From: Bacteroidales bacterium
GTDB lineage: Bacteria; Bacteroidota; Bacteroidia; Bacteroidales; F082
Assembly: GCA_017651645.1 (NCBI GenBank)
Contig: JAGCCO010000008.1
Span: forward strand, 101,381-165,380
Length of the DNA stretch: 64,000 nucleotides
Reading direction: 5' to 3'
The translations under genes and the position numbers were made by a program. Of the stretch, positions 27,507 through 64,000 are shown one piece after another; position 1 is the first letter of the stretch, and every line of letters starts with the position of its first letter. A model generated the notes under the pieces. That model had not been told where the DNA came from. It was given only the letters and a program-made list of their open reading frames with translations, and did no database searches.

Positions 27507-28400
27507 ATGAACAAAATCAGAGCCGCCGTAGTTGGTTACGGCAATGTGGGCCGCTTCGCGCTGGAAGCCTTGGAAGCCGCCCCCGACTTCGAAGTGGCGG
27601 GTATCGTCCGTCGCAATGCTAATAAAACTATTGAACTCTCTCAATACGAGGTTGTTAAAGACATCAAGGAACTGAAAGACGTGGATGTGGCCATCTTGGC
27701 ATGCCCCACGCGCAGCTGTCCCGATTATGCCAAACAAATCCTGCCTTTGGGTATCAACACTGTGGATTCTTTCGACATCCATACTTCCATCGTGGACTAC
27801 CGTCGCGAGCTGATGCCTATTAATAAAGAAACTAACACCGTCAGTGTCATCGCTGCCGGCTGGGACCCAGGCTCGGATTCCATCGTTCGCACTTTGATGC
27901 AGAGTCTGGCACCTAAGGGCTTGTCGTACACCAACTTCGGCCCAGGCATGTCGATGGGTCACAGCGTCTGTGTGCGCTCAAAGAAAGGTGTGAAAAATGC
28001 CCTTTCAGTAACCATCCCGTTGGGCGAAGGCATCCACCGCCGCATGGTGTATGTGGAACTGGAAGACGGTGCCACGCTCGAGCAGGTGACCAAAGACATC
28101 AAGGCTGACCCGTATTTTGCCAGCGACGAGACCCATGTGTTCGCCGTCGACAGCGTGGATGCAGTGCGCGATATGGGCCATGGAGTGAACTTGGTGCGCA
28201 AAGGTGTCTCGGGCAAGACCCAGAACCAACGCATGGAGTTCAACATGAGCATCAACAACCCCGCTTTGACGGGTCAGGTGCTGGTCAATGTGGCCCGTGC
28301 CTCGATGCGCCTGCAACCAGGCTGCTACACGATGGTTGAGATCCCTGTCATCGACATGCTGCCTGGCGAAAGGGAAGACCTGATCGCTCATTTGGTATAA
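27507..28400 (+). CDS. ddh: meso-Diaminopimelate D-dehydrogenase
   Basis: 297 residues. An NAD(P)-binding Rossmann start (IRAAVVGYGNVGRFALEAL) is followed by ILACPTRSCPDYAKQIL, TVDSFDIHTSI, VIAAGWDPGSDSIVRTLMQ, and the C-terminal substrate-binding part (FGPGMSMGHSVCVRS; EDLIAHLV). These are hallmarks of Ddh, which reductively aminates tetrahydrodipicolinate to meso-DAP in one NADPH-dependent step, bypassing the succinylase/acetylase routes of lysine and peptidoglycan synthesis. Length is normal. It lies between two GH3 genes, and a structured repeat element begins 7 bp after its stop. Confidence 0.95.
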   Translation: MNKIRAAVVGYGNVGRFALEALEAAPDFEVAGIVRRNANKTIELSQYEVVKDIKELKDVDVAILACPTRSCPDYAKQILPLGINTVDSFDIHTSIVDYRRELMPINKETNTVSVIAAGWDPGSDSIVRTLMQSLAPKGLSYTNFGPGMSMGHSVCVRSKKGVKNALSVTIPLGEGIHRRMVYVELEDGATLEQVTKDIKADPYFASDETHVFAVDSVDAVRDMGHGVNLVRKGVSGKTQNQRMEFNMSINNPALTGQVLVNVARASMRLQPGCYTMVEIPVIDMLPGEREDLIAHLV

Positions 28401-28407
28401 AAGGAAA

Positions 28408-28536
28408 CAAAACCTTCAAAACTTGCAAAACCAAAGGGAAACGTGGGCGGCTACACAACCGTGTCGCCGCCGGAAAGCCGCCGGTTGGCAGGCTTTCCCT
28501 AACCGAAAAGTGGTTTTGATGGTTTTGCAAGTTTTG
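28408..28536 (+). repeat. Structured intergenic element, copy 1 (triple CAAAAC boxes plus two hairpins)
   Basis: Three CAAAAC boxes start at 28408, 28417 and 28426, exactly 9 bp apart. Hairpin A at 28446-28471 has stem GGCGGC/GCCGCC plus ACAC/GTGT with loop AACC. Hairpin B at 28472-28498 has stem GGAAAGCC/GGCTTTCC plus GCC/GGC with loop GGTT, complementary to loop A. Three inverted GTTTTG boxes start at 28513, 28522 and 28531, again 9 bp apart. The element begins 7 bp after the ddh stop and ends 14 bp before the GH3 ATG. A second copy is at 61947-62078. It could be an intercistronic RNA structure or a small mobile repeat. Confidence 0.85.
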
Positions 28537-28550
28537 TGATAAAAAAAGAA

Positions 28551-61405: not shown

Positions 61406-61930
61406 TCAATCATACAACTCCACGAACTCATAACTATTCCCCATCGCCTCCAAAAACTTGATAAAGTCCTCCTGGCTAATGATAATTGTCCCCGTGTTGT
61501 CATTGGGATGGAAGCTCAGGCGAGGGGCATTCAATAGGTTTTTGTCGATGAAGAGGTGCACCTCGTGGTTTTCGTCGTTGATGAGGCCGAAGGGGGAGAC
61601 GCTGCCGGGCTTCAGTCCGAGGTATTTCTCCATGCGAGCTTCCGAGGCGAAGGTGAGCTTGCCTTGGTGCAGACGCTGCTCGAGGTCGTGGATGTCCATC
61701 TGATGCATGCACTCGAAGATGACGAGGTAGTGCTTGTTGCCCTTGTGGTTCCTGAAAAACAGGTTCTTGCAGTGCGTGGCCTCGAACTTGCCCCAGTAGG
61801 CCAACGACTCCTCGATGGAGCCTAAAGGCGGGTGGAACTTGATGTCGAAGTCGATGCCGAGGCCGAGCAGGGTATCCACTACCTTCTGCTGCCGCTCACT
61901 CAAAGGTTGGTTTATCTTTGATGGTTTCAT
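61406..61930 (-). CDS. Prolyl-tRNA editing protein (YbaK/ProX-type deacylase)
   Basis: 174 residues from ATG 61930; the frame can be extended to a GTG at 61954, but that lies in the repeat element. The YbaK/PrdX fold is seen in LLGLGIDFDIKFHPPLGSIE, CKNLFFRNHKGNKHYLVIFE, GLKPGSVSPFGLINDENHEV, and the C-terminal NAPRLSFHPNDNTGTIIIS. The conserved Lys that contacts tRNA is probably in CKNLFFRN. It hydrolyses mischarged tRNA, typically Ala-tRNA(Pro). It is downstream of uvrA; the two are separated by a 132-bp structured element. Confidence 0.88.
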   Translation of the reverse strand: MKPSKINQPLSERQQKVVDTLLGLGIDFDIKFHPPLGSIEESLAYWGKFEATHCKNLFFRNHKGNKHYLVIFECMHQMDIHDLEQRLHQGKLTFASEARMEKYLGLKPGSVSPFGLINDENHEVHLFIDKNLLNAPRLSFHPNDNTGTIIISQEDFIKFLEAMGNSYEFVELYD

Positions 61931-61946
61931 TCTTTTTCTTTTTTCA

Positions 61947-62078
61947 CAAAACACTCAAAACCCGACAAAACCTTTTTTCTTACTCAGGGAAAGCCAGCCA
62001 ACCGGCGGCTTTCCGGCGGCGACGCGGTTGCGTAGCCGCCCACGCCCAATGATGGTTTTGTATGTTTTGTCGGTTTTG
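61947..62078 (-). repeat. Structured intergenic element, copy 2
   Basis: Same design as 28408-28536 but on the minus strand. CAAAAC-type boxes start at 61947, 61956 and 61966; inverted boxes start at 62055, 62064 and 62073. Hairpin B is at 61988-62014 and hairpin A at 62015-62040. In hairpin A the ACAC/GTGT stem of copy 1 is ACGC/GCGT here, so one base pair is exchanged with pairing kept. Loops AACC and GGTT are unchanged. It starts 8 bp after the uvrA stop and ends 16 bp before the next ATG. Confidence 0.85.
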
Positions 62079-62086
62079 TGACATAA

Positions 62087-64000
62087 TTATAGCTTGTTCT
62101 TTAAGGCTTTCCCGGTATATGATTGCTTGCATTTCACCAAGTCTTCGGGCGTGCCTTCAAAGACGATCTCGCCGCCCTTGTTGCCGCTCTCGGGACCTAG
62201 GTCGATGACCCAGTCCGCCGACTTGATGACATCCATGTTGTGTTCGATGATGATGACGCTGTGACCATTGGCAATCAAGGCGTTGAACGACTCCAGCAGC
62301 TTGTTCACATCGTGGAAATGCAAGCCCGTGGTCGGTTCGTCGAAGATGAAGAGGGTGGGCTTCTCCACCTGTCCCTTGATGAGGAAATAGGCCAACTTCA
62401 CGCGCTGGGCCTCGCCGCCCGAGAGCGAACTCGACGACTGTCCGAGCTTCAGATAACCCAAACCGACCTCTTGCAAAGGTTTCAGACGGTTGACGATGCG
62501 CCCGACGATGGCAGTCTGTCGCTCGGATGAGTGCTCGAAGAAGTCGATGGCTTCCTCGATGCTCATGTTGAGGATGTCGGAGATGTGCTTGCCGTCGTAT
62601 TTGATCTCCAGCACCTCTTCCTTGAAGCGCGTGCCGTGGCATGCCTCGCAAGGCAGGTAGACATCGGCCATGAACTGCATCTCAATCTTTTGCACGCCCT
62701 CGCCCTCACATTCCTCGCAGCGGCCGCCCGGCACGTTGAACGAGAAGAAGGCAGGCTTGATGCCGCGCAGTTTGGCTAATTTCTGCTCGGAAAACAGCGT
62801 CCGAATCTCATCGTAGGCTTTCAGATAAGTGGCTGGGTTGGAGCGCGATGATTTGCCGATGGGGTTTTGGTCAATGAACTCGACGGCCTGGATGAGGCGC
62901 AGGTCGCCTTCCAAGGCACCGTAACTACCGCATTTCTCGGCGTTCTCGCCCAGCTGCCGTTTCATGGCGGGGTAGAGCACATCCTTCACCAAGGTCGACT
63001 TGCCCGAACCGCTCACGCCCGTGATGACGGTCATCATGTTGAGCGGGAAGCGCACGGTGAGGTTCTTGAGGTTGTTCTGCGTCGCGCCCTTGATGACGAT
63101 GGCGTTGGCGCTCTTGCGTCGGCGGGTGGGGACGGGGATGCTCATCTTGCCCGTGAGGTATTGCGTGGTCAGGCTCTTCTCGCAGTGGACAAGGTCTTTA
63201 ATCTCGCCTTCAAACACGACTTCGCCACCAAAGGCACCCGCCATCGGCCCAATGTCGATGATGTAGTCGGCGGCACGGATGATCTCCTCGTCGTGTTCCA
63301 CCACGATGACGGTGTTGCCGATGTCGCGCAGGCGTTTCAGCACCTTGATGAGTTGCTCGGTGTCGCGGGAATGTAGGCCGATGCTGGGTTCGTCCAAGAT
63401 ATAGGTAGAGCCGACCAGACTGCTGCCCAACGAAGTCGCGAGGTTGATGCGCTGCGACTCACCGCCGGAGAGCGTGTTGGAGAGACGGTTCAGGGTCAGG
63501 TAACCCAAGCCCACCTCGATGATGAAATCCAGGCGGTTGTTGATTTCCACCAGCAGGCGAGAGGCGATTTTGCTGTCGGTCTCGTCGAGTTTGAGGTGAT
63601 CGAAGAAAGCCTTCAACTCGTCCAAGGGCATTAGCACGAGGTCGGTGATGCTCTTGCCGCCCACCTTCACATATTGCGCTTGTCGGCGCAGGCGTGTGCC
63701 ATGGCATTCGGGGCAGACCGTCTTGCCGCGATACCGCGACAGCATCACGCGGTATTGTATCTTATACGACTGTGTCTCAACATAGTTGAAGAAATCCACA
63801 ATGCCTTCGAAATACTGGTTGCCAGTCCAAAGGAGGCTCACTTGTTCGTCGGTGAGTTCGTAGAACGGCTTAAAGATGGGGATGCCCACCTTGTCGGCCA
63901 CGCGGATAAGGGCGTCTTTCCACTCGCTCATCTTCTCGCCGCGCCAGCAGGCGATGGCGTTCTCGTAGATCGACAGGCTCTTGTTGGGCACCACCAGGTC
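62087..64000 (-). CDS. uvrA: Excinuclease ABC subunit A, partial
   Basis: 638 codons are visible; the N-terminal third lies beyond the right edge, since UvrA proteins are about 940 residues. The first visible ATPase half ends with the signature LSGGESQRINLATSLGSSL and DEPSIGLHSRD; the second half has Walker A GVSGSGKSTLVKDVLYPAM, the zinc module CEECEGEGVQ ... CEACHGTRFK, signature LSGGEAQRVKLAYFL and DEPTTGLHFHDV. It finds DNA damage and loads UvrB in nucleotide excision repair. The frame is intact through position 64000. Confidence 0.96.
   Translation of the reverse strand, partial: DLVVPNKSLSIYENAIACWRGEKMSEWKDALIRVADKVGIPIFKPFYELTDEQVSLLWTGNQYFEGIVDFFNYVETQSYKIQYRVMLSRYRGKTVCPECHGTRLRRQAQYVKVGGKSITDLVLMPLDELKAFFDHLKLDETDSKIASRLLVEINNRLDFIIEVGLGYLTLNRLSNTLSGGESQRINLATSLGSSLVGSTYILDEPSIGLHSRDTEQLIKVLKRLRDIGNTVIVVEHDEEIIRAADYIIDIGPMAGAFGGEVVFEGEIKDLVHCEKSLTTQYLTGKMSIPVPTRRRKSANAIVIKGATQNNLKNLTVRFPLNMMTVITGVSGSGKSTLVKDVLYPAMKRQLGENAEKCGSYGALEGDLRLIQAVEFIDQNPIGKSSRSNPATYLKAYDEIRTLFSEQKLAKLRGIKPAFFSFNVPGGRCEECEGEGVQKIEMQFMADVYLPCEACHGTRFKEEVLEIKYDGKHISDILNMSIEEAIDFFEHSSERQTAIVGRIVNRLKPLQEVGLGYLKLGQSSSSLSGGEAQRVKLAYFLIKGQVEKPTLFIFDEPTTGLHFHDVNKLLESFNALIANGHSVIIIEHNMDVIKSADWVIDLGPESGNKGGEIVFEGTPEDLVKCKQSYTGKALKNKL

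Follow-up and report, generated by a model that had tools for sequence, protein, structure and literature searches.

Comparison with described systems

Three described systems come closest to the element treated here, a repeat of about 130 bp that lies between the ddh and GH3 genes in a 64,000-nucleotide stretch of a Bacteroidales genome (the window). (i) Repetitive extragenic palindromes (REPs) and their inverted pairs (REPINs), which are linked to RAYT transposases and include the GTAG- and CGTC-tagged repeats of PMC3733652, are likewise intergenic paired hairpins in inverted arrangement and occur in many copies. The present element differs in having terminal arrays of three boxes at 9-bp steps and, in its long form, a nuclease gene, and no RAYT gene was linked to it in the loci tested. 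(ii) BrickBuilt of Porphyromonas gingivalis, again a Bacteroidales intergenic repeat of the miniature inverted-repeat transposable element (MITE) type with tandem repeats and inverted ends, contains a 23-bp minisatellite (PMC4596501); in the present element each end instead has 6-bp boxes stepped every 9 bp, and two hairpins rich in GC lie between the ends. (iii) Intervening sequences (IVSs) of 23S rRNA with an S23 open reading frame (ORF) hold a small ORF inside inverted ends that fold in RNA, and the Coxiella IVS is called a selfish element in PMC4990558. In contrast, the present element has box arrays and a GxxExxY nuclease gene, and it shows no rRNA context: both window copies lie between protein genes and the parsed copies beside ORFs, with no search aimed at rRNA.

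RAYT-moved REPs, MITEs moved by DDE transposases and rRNA IVSs each fail on at least one tested feature; in its way of working the element resembles selfish palindromes that lie between genes. We found the box-array architecture described nowhere in the literature searched, the coverage of which excluded subscription papers and preprints; a query for the PDDEXK_3 family gave no match there, and array sequences gave irrelevant matches only.

A dispersed repeat of rumen Bacteroidales

Our reading of the ddh–GH3 element (copy 1), with a probability of about 0.6, is that it belongs to the GxxExxY kind of mobile element and is non-autonomous. It is a dispersed repeat with many copies across related rumen bacteria. 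The 130-bp form is most plausibly a non-autonomous deletion derivative of long forms that carry a gene. A sequence-only reading of the window had reported three CAAAAC boxes and three inverted GTTTTG boxes, each set at exact 9-bp steps, around two back-to-back hairpins with loops AACC and GGTT. That observation is confirmed in all these parts (Table 1), and both hairpins appear in the minimum-energy fold; the interpretation attached to it is partly supported. Its suggestion of a small mobile repeat agrees with the number and identity of the copies described below and with the presence or absence of the element at the same gene junction among relatives. Further copies and covariation, the absence of which would have counted against the sequence-only reading, were both found, the latter for both hairpins in an arm-swap test.

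Relatives were found through the ddh protein. The 25 genomes behind the 25 nearest of 80 ddh loci (L001–L025) are metagenome-assembled genomes (MAGs) of rumen Bacteroidales; over the 13-kb ddh region the closest, L001, is ~81% identical to the window in aligned parts, and the whole set ranges from 73 to 81%. At least 237 element matches occur in 18 of these 25 genomes (a lower bound for three of them). The element is also present in 40 of 173 genomes of the same GTDB family, where the best five candidates per genome were scored, and in 2 of 247 genomes of an order-wide draw (best three candidates per genome), both of them members of that family. Of the 237 matches, 130 loci (30 + 100) were examined in sequence. 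Seven of 135 parsed sources (L093, L119, L127, L167, L189, L191 and L199) had no end pair under the pattern used, and 89 distinct copies carry both termini, TCACAAAAC and GTTTTGTGA, at lengths of 124–163 bp. The most similar pairs of copies within one genome reach 93–95% identity in three genomes.

The array pattern is rare by chance. We scanned for 7-mers that occur three times at 8–11 bp steps with an inverted triple nearby, tolerating one mismatch and excluding near-homopolymers. Two places only were found in the window, 28407–28537 and 61946–62079, compared with none in each of five second-order Markov shuffles. Over the ddh loci of 80 relatives (957 kb) the same scan returned 24 places versus none in one shuffle of each locus. 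Copies of this element at the ddh junction account for seven of the 24; the other 17 lie in L030–L080, mostly Prevotella-type records, and use different words, some of which resemble simple runs. We also note gene-less short inverted arrays of 9-bp step in three Prevotella-type genomes (L057:5111–5186, L076:5116–5187 and L077:5107–5188), at near-equal distances upstream of ddh but with different boxes (ACGGATT, CACGAATT and CACGGATT), which looks like motif turnover at apparently one site.

A GxxExxY gene in the long form

A search for the end arrays in two genomes returned pairs ~640 bp apart that hold a single ORF, a member of the GxxExxY family (PF13366/TIGR04256). This long form measures 635–658 bp from first to last box, has the same ends, and places the gene between the two hairpins. 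Two of the proteins (L241 and L242) score 128–130 bits for GxxExxY (TIGR04256, cut-off 35) and 125 bits for PDDEXK_3 (PF13366, cut-off 22). The seven closest GxxExxY homologues across the 25 genomes all lie within such elements, and an eighth match (L280, genome G016) is broken and has the left array only. Intermediate forms of 191–274 bp retain, by eye, pieces of the flanks of the gene. No other long cargo (330–3000 bp) was seen between these ends among the loci examined, a small part of each MAG, and tblastn found no GxxExxY gene in the window. By eye, the gene-bearing elements occupy two junctions only: one between what we take to be galE-like and rfbA-like genes, in three genomes, and one upstream of a single other gene, in four.

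The GxxExxY protein is a stand-alone protein of 146 aa under purifying selection (13 of 21 pairs were computable). No solved structure was matched by sequence; among the families compared, its predicted model is closest to Cas4 (PDB 4ic1). Its D, E, K, Q and Y residues are kept in 47 of 47 aligned relatives and presumably constitute the D..ExK..QxxxY motif shared with Cas4/RecB-like nucleases. It differs from those nucleases in standing alone within a repeat element, and a shared fold shows no function. We know of no established role for GxxExxY or S23-type genes.

Hairpins, boxes and loops

The fold of copy 1 that contains both hairpins, H1 and H2, is strong (z = −6.5 when folded as RNA and −7.1 when the opposite strand is folded as DNA). 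Covariation was examined in the 111 of 129 copies that have both loop motifs, or 101 distinct cores after removal of duplicates. Hairpins built from the arms of different copies are on average less stable than native ones, at −14.1 instead of −17.9 kcal/mol for H1 and −14.7 instead of −17.4 kcal/mol for H2. Within H1, one pair is preserved as GC, AT, CG or TG in 100 of 101 cores (47.6 in shuffles), and another in 87 (67.2 in shuffles). The 3-base spacers between boxes, by comparison, pair with their partners below chance: 0.98 versus 1.26, and 0.83 versus 1.49, of 3 positions, in 48 copies with exact 9–9 boxes on both sides and with relatedness left in. Because the hairpin arms covary and the spacers do not pair, the hairpins look like structures, and the boxes resemble recurring recognition words more than one side of a stem. 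The lower of the two spacer values reads as if a perfect long palindrome were avoided.

Two candidate roles for these parts were tried and set aside. A long outer stem would be an RNA structure formed by the ends; copy 1 does pair over 17 nt, yet the spacers of the 48 copies pair below chance. A coding mini-ORF, in which 9 bp would equal three codons, does not agree with copy lengths modulo 3 of 34, 21 and 34 among 89 copies, nor with a frame that is open on one strand in 16 and on the other in 15 of the 34 copies divisible by three.

The kissing of the two loops proposed in the sequence-only reading is not borne out, as the loop variants of the 111 copies do not clearly covary (AACC/GGTT in 81, AACC/AGTT in 17, AACT/GGTT in 8 and AACT/AGTT in 5). 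A protein array along one face of the DNA, also proposed there, is a poor fit, since with a helical turn of ~10.5 bp successive boxes at 9-bp steps are rotated against one another; binding of a protein to the boxes as such is possible. As to the unpaired GTAG-type tag that a REP hairpin would have at its foot, the observation is that GTGG often precedes H1 (by eye, uncounted). In four copies the H2 loop is replaced by a second palindrome, a nested repeat with GTTCCGAATCAAGTTCGGAAT (L202, L210 and L200) or a related one (L098).

Placement at gene junctions

ORF calling places 96 of 130 parsed copies between co-directional genes, 14 between convergent and 10 between divergent genes, with 10 not assigned. 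For the 98 distinct copies that have a start codon on one side only (17 divergent and 11 startless copies being excluded), the median distance from start codon to last box is 17.5 bp, with quartiles of 15 and 26.5, and 82 of the 98 have a stop codon on the opposite side at a median of 7 bp. ATG directly precedes the terminus at 21 of 178 ends, several of which are, by eye, one orthologous site; duplication of the start codon is therefore not general.

Two junctions were followed across relatives. At the ddh–GH3 junction, paired arrays are present in 7 of the 25 relatives, L010 has a remnant, and 17 lack an array pair. Among these 17, read by eye, the genes abut or overlap in six (L009, L012, L016, L022, L023 and L025), and in at least four (L004, L006, L008 and L020) a CGTC-type repeat has a CAAAAC-like stretch next to it, which may be a further remnant. 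The junction upstream of the aminoacyl-tRNA-editing gene, where the second window copy lies, was read by eye in 22 loci from 20 of the 25 genomes. The element is present in seven (L352, L354, L357–L359, L370 and L372), and its left end is fused to another repeat in two (L353 and L371); four have inverted arrays of other boxes (L351, L356, L360 and L361), three short arrays (L363, L365 and L366), and six no array (L355, L362, L364 and L367–L369). L355 is an empty counterpart, with an upstream sequence that by eye is common to L352, L354, L358 and L359. In L353 and L371 the left CAAAAC end is joined to a CGTCATTGCGGGC-type repeat, the tag of which resembles the CGTC-tagged REPs of PMC3733652.

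These placements bear on the main rival to a mobile element, an intercistronic regulatory or processing RNA kept under selection, whose hairpins would separate expression of the two genes within the mRNA through stability, RNase III processing or downstream translation. The strong fold, the covarying hairpins, the tight spacing to stop and start codons, and the occupation of the same junctions in several species are all as expected of such an RNA. It is less easily reconciled with the mixed orientation of the core relative to the downstream start (71 versus 27 of the 98 copies), which differs between species even at one junction (e.g. L094 and L108 versus L157 and L158), with the diversity of the downstream genes, and with the unrelated elements, or nothing, found at the same junctions in relatives. 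In addition, no sigma-70 promoter or terminator-like site was found in the element by a scan that does not cover Bacteroidetes promoters, and no Rfam family exceeded its gathering score (three sub-threshold matches, the best at 16.4 bits against a threshold of 40). We consider a retained mRNA function unlikely.

Transposase-based alternatives

Target duplications of at least 3 bp are present in 4 of 89 copies, compared with a shuffled mean of 7.7, so there is no excess. To our knowledge REPs also lack target duplications, and a REPIN, two inverted REPs moved by a RAYT (a Y1 transposase), would further account for the single CAACYG motif that the loops of the adjacent H1 and H2 share, in opposite orientation like the two members of an inverted REP pair. 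Of the 25 genomes, 22 have Y1_Tnp genes. The linkage expected of a RAYT partner is nevertheless missing: among the 30 of 73 Y1_Tnp matches examined, inverted 3+3 arrays flank 0 of 26 testable loci, and two-box matches occur at 8 of 30, four of which were inspected and resemble chance matches. Four genomes (G021–G023 and G025) have Y1_Tnp genes and no element match, and REPs with box arrays are not known to us. We rejected RAYT as the partner on the lack of linkage to element ends in these loci, and regard a REPIN as very improbable.

A classical MITE, moved by a DDE transposase recognizing the 27-bp inverted ends, would explain the small size, the numerous copies, the internal deletion of a longer form, and the several boxes within terminal inverted repeats. 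It would leave unexplained the absence of target duplication, the PD-(D/E)XK protein as the sole gene between the ends in the loci examined, the covarying hairpin arms, which a DDE MITE does not need, and the spacers that pair below chance. This explanation is improbable and, like a RAYT-moved REP, is not supported.

Arrays around GxxExxY and S23-type genes

GxxExxY genes are found in 99 of 198 sampled Bacteroidota genomes, and genes of the four-helix-bundle S23-type family TIGR02436 in 147. We tested the best-scoring loci of each kind, which are not a random draw, for inverted arrays with at least three units per side, 7–12 bp steps and one mismatch in six, excluding loci shorter than 3200 bases. 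Such arrays flank 5 of 5 long elements, 18 of 20 other GxxExxY loci of the 25 genomes, 19 of 30 GxxExxY loci phylum-wide and, as a further likeness to the 23S rRNA IVSs, 15 of 30 TIGR02436 loci, versus 0 of 26 RAYT loci. The corresponding shuffles gave 0 of 10, 1 of 40, 2 of 60, 2 of 60 and 0 of 52. These counts are not blind, because they were made after the results of two stricter tests were known. A looser threshold of three and two units discriminates poorly (9 of 26 RAYT loci; shuffles 12 of 40 and 22 of 60). Downstream of the TIGR02436 gene at L350, a 7-bp box (CTAATCA/CTAACCA) is repeated in tandem for ~27 units, an array that greatly exceeds those of the other loci in length.

The first stricter test, in which six of nine columns had to be identical in three units, found lag 9 on both sides at 8 of 21 own-genome paralogs, 1 of 30 phylum-wide loci (lags 8 and 10: three each) and 0 of 26 RAYT loci. 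The second, with exact 5-mers, found inverted arrays at 14 of 20 own-genome, 5 of 30 phylum-wide, 9 of 30 S23-type and 0 of 26 RAYT loci; same-direction arrays were equally frequent phylum-wide (6 of 30), and swapped locus pairs of the own-genome set gave 20 of 91. This test missed all five long elements because it disregarded words in which four letters are the same. Across 47 loci, box sequence tracks protein similarity (rho 0.34, equalled in 0 of 2000 permutations, for pairs below 75% identity), with array words taken from one side only in 16 of the 47.

We tentatively propose that GxxExxY elements may be a class of bacterial mobile element in their own right, one that has no name so far. 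Inverted box arrays with steps of 7–10 nt would enclose a Cas4-like nuclease gene or, in related sister elements, an S23-type four-helix-bundle gene, each lineage having its own box read by its own protein; the elements would insert at operon stop/start junctions and leave gene-less derivatives with box turnover at fixed sites between species. The shared inverted-array architecture would give GxxExxY and S23-type genes a testable role, in small selfish elements at operon junctions with the boxes as recognition sites, and it offers an explanation for intergenic short-step repeats in Bacteroidota genomes. The copies are also natural operon insertions whose effect on expression can be measured.

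A model for movement

In the mobile-element reading of copy 1, the full form has the order three-box array, hairpin, GxxExxY gene encoding a Cas4-like PD-(D/E)XK nuclease, other hairpin, and inverted three-box array, and the 130-bp form would have lost the gene while keeping both ends and both hairpins. The nuclease would bind the boxes and cut at the folded hairpins, as single strand or cruciform, and the element would be copied into a new junction without target duplication. The interval from a stop codon to the last ~12 bp ahead of a start would be the main place where insertion is tolerated. Once inserted, the element would be co-transcribed and inherited vertically, possibly with a regulatory effect on the downstream gene.

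Several results weigh against this model. Movement is what we infer, and no transposition has been observed; target duplications are lacking, and the best same-genome pair is just 72–86% alike in 11 of 14 sets (13 genomes and the window). Many short copies are found at a junction that is occupied in several species, a possible sign that they are retained for a function. The cognate gene is present in just 7 of the 18 element-bearing genomes and at only two junctions, so the full form looks vertically inherited. Similar arrays surround S23-type genes, whose fold is unrelated, so the gene might be a passenger and not the mobilizer. The step in which a nuclease within the same ends moves the element is weakened by all three: the patchy co-occurrence, the seemingly vertical inheritance of the gene-bearing form, and the S23-type arrays. 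As for the wider architecture, the two stricter array tests give it less support, and the correlation of box with protein is confounded by taxon. Finally, swapped hairpins are at least as stable as native ones in 22% (H1) and 24% (H2) of comparisons, and column by column only few pairs, chiefly the two of H1, are clearly above shuffles; several columns of H2 are below them, at places where bulges shift the register.

The two window copies

Table 1. Positions of the two element copies in the window and of their parts
Feature	Position	Strand	Remarks
Copy 1, whole element	28407..28539	+	Between ddh stop (28398-28400) and GH3 ATG (28551)
Copy 1, left array	28408..28431	+	CAAAAC at 28408, 28417, 28426; exact 9-bp steps
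Copy 1, hairpin H1	28446..28471	+	GC-rich stem, loop CAACCG, one T.C mismatch; arms covary across copies
Copy 1, hairpin H2	28472..28498	+	GGAAAGC stem, loop CGGTTG, bulged A; arms covary (arm-swap test)
Copy 1, right array	28513..28539	+	GTTTTG at 28513, 28522, 28531; exact 9-bp steps; ends in family terminus GTTTTGTGA
Copy 2, whole element	61944..62081	-	Between uvrA-like stop (62087-62089, -) and start of aminoacyl-tRNA-editing domain gene (61930, -)
Copy 2, hairpin H2	61988..62014	-	From blastn alignment to copy 1
Copy 2, hairpin H1	62015..62040	-	From blastn alignment to copy 1

The ends of copy 1 form a 27-nt inverted repeat that is 81% complementary and includes a perfect 17-nt arm pair. 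The family terminus is usually TCACAAAAC/GTTTTGTGA, from which copy 1 deviates on the left (AAACAAAAC). The element lies between the ddh stop and the GH3 ATG, as first reported, but does not fill the intercistronic gap (28401–28550) as had been claimed: 6 bp remain after the stop codon and 11 bp before the ATG. Pfam matches support the identities of ddh (DAPDH_C) and GH3.

Copy 2 is inverted relative to copy 1, and one of its sides is stepped 9 and 10. The tRNA-editing gene beside it (61406–61930) is presumably ybaK-like. The protein it encodes is 97–99% identical in 14 of the 22 matches (L351–L372), one partial, despite ddh-region DNA in the same genomes that is only 73–81% alike to the window. 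Two of these genomes (G005 and G013) have two copies of the tRNA-editing gene.
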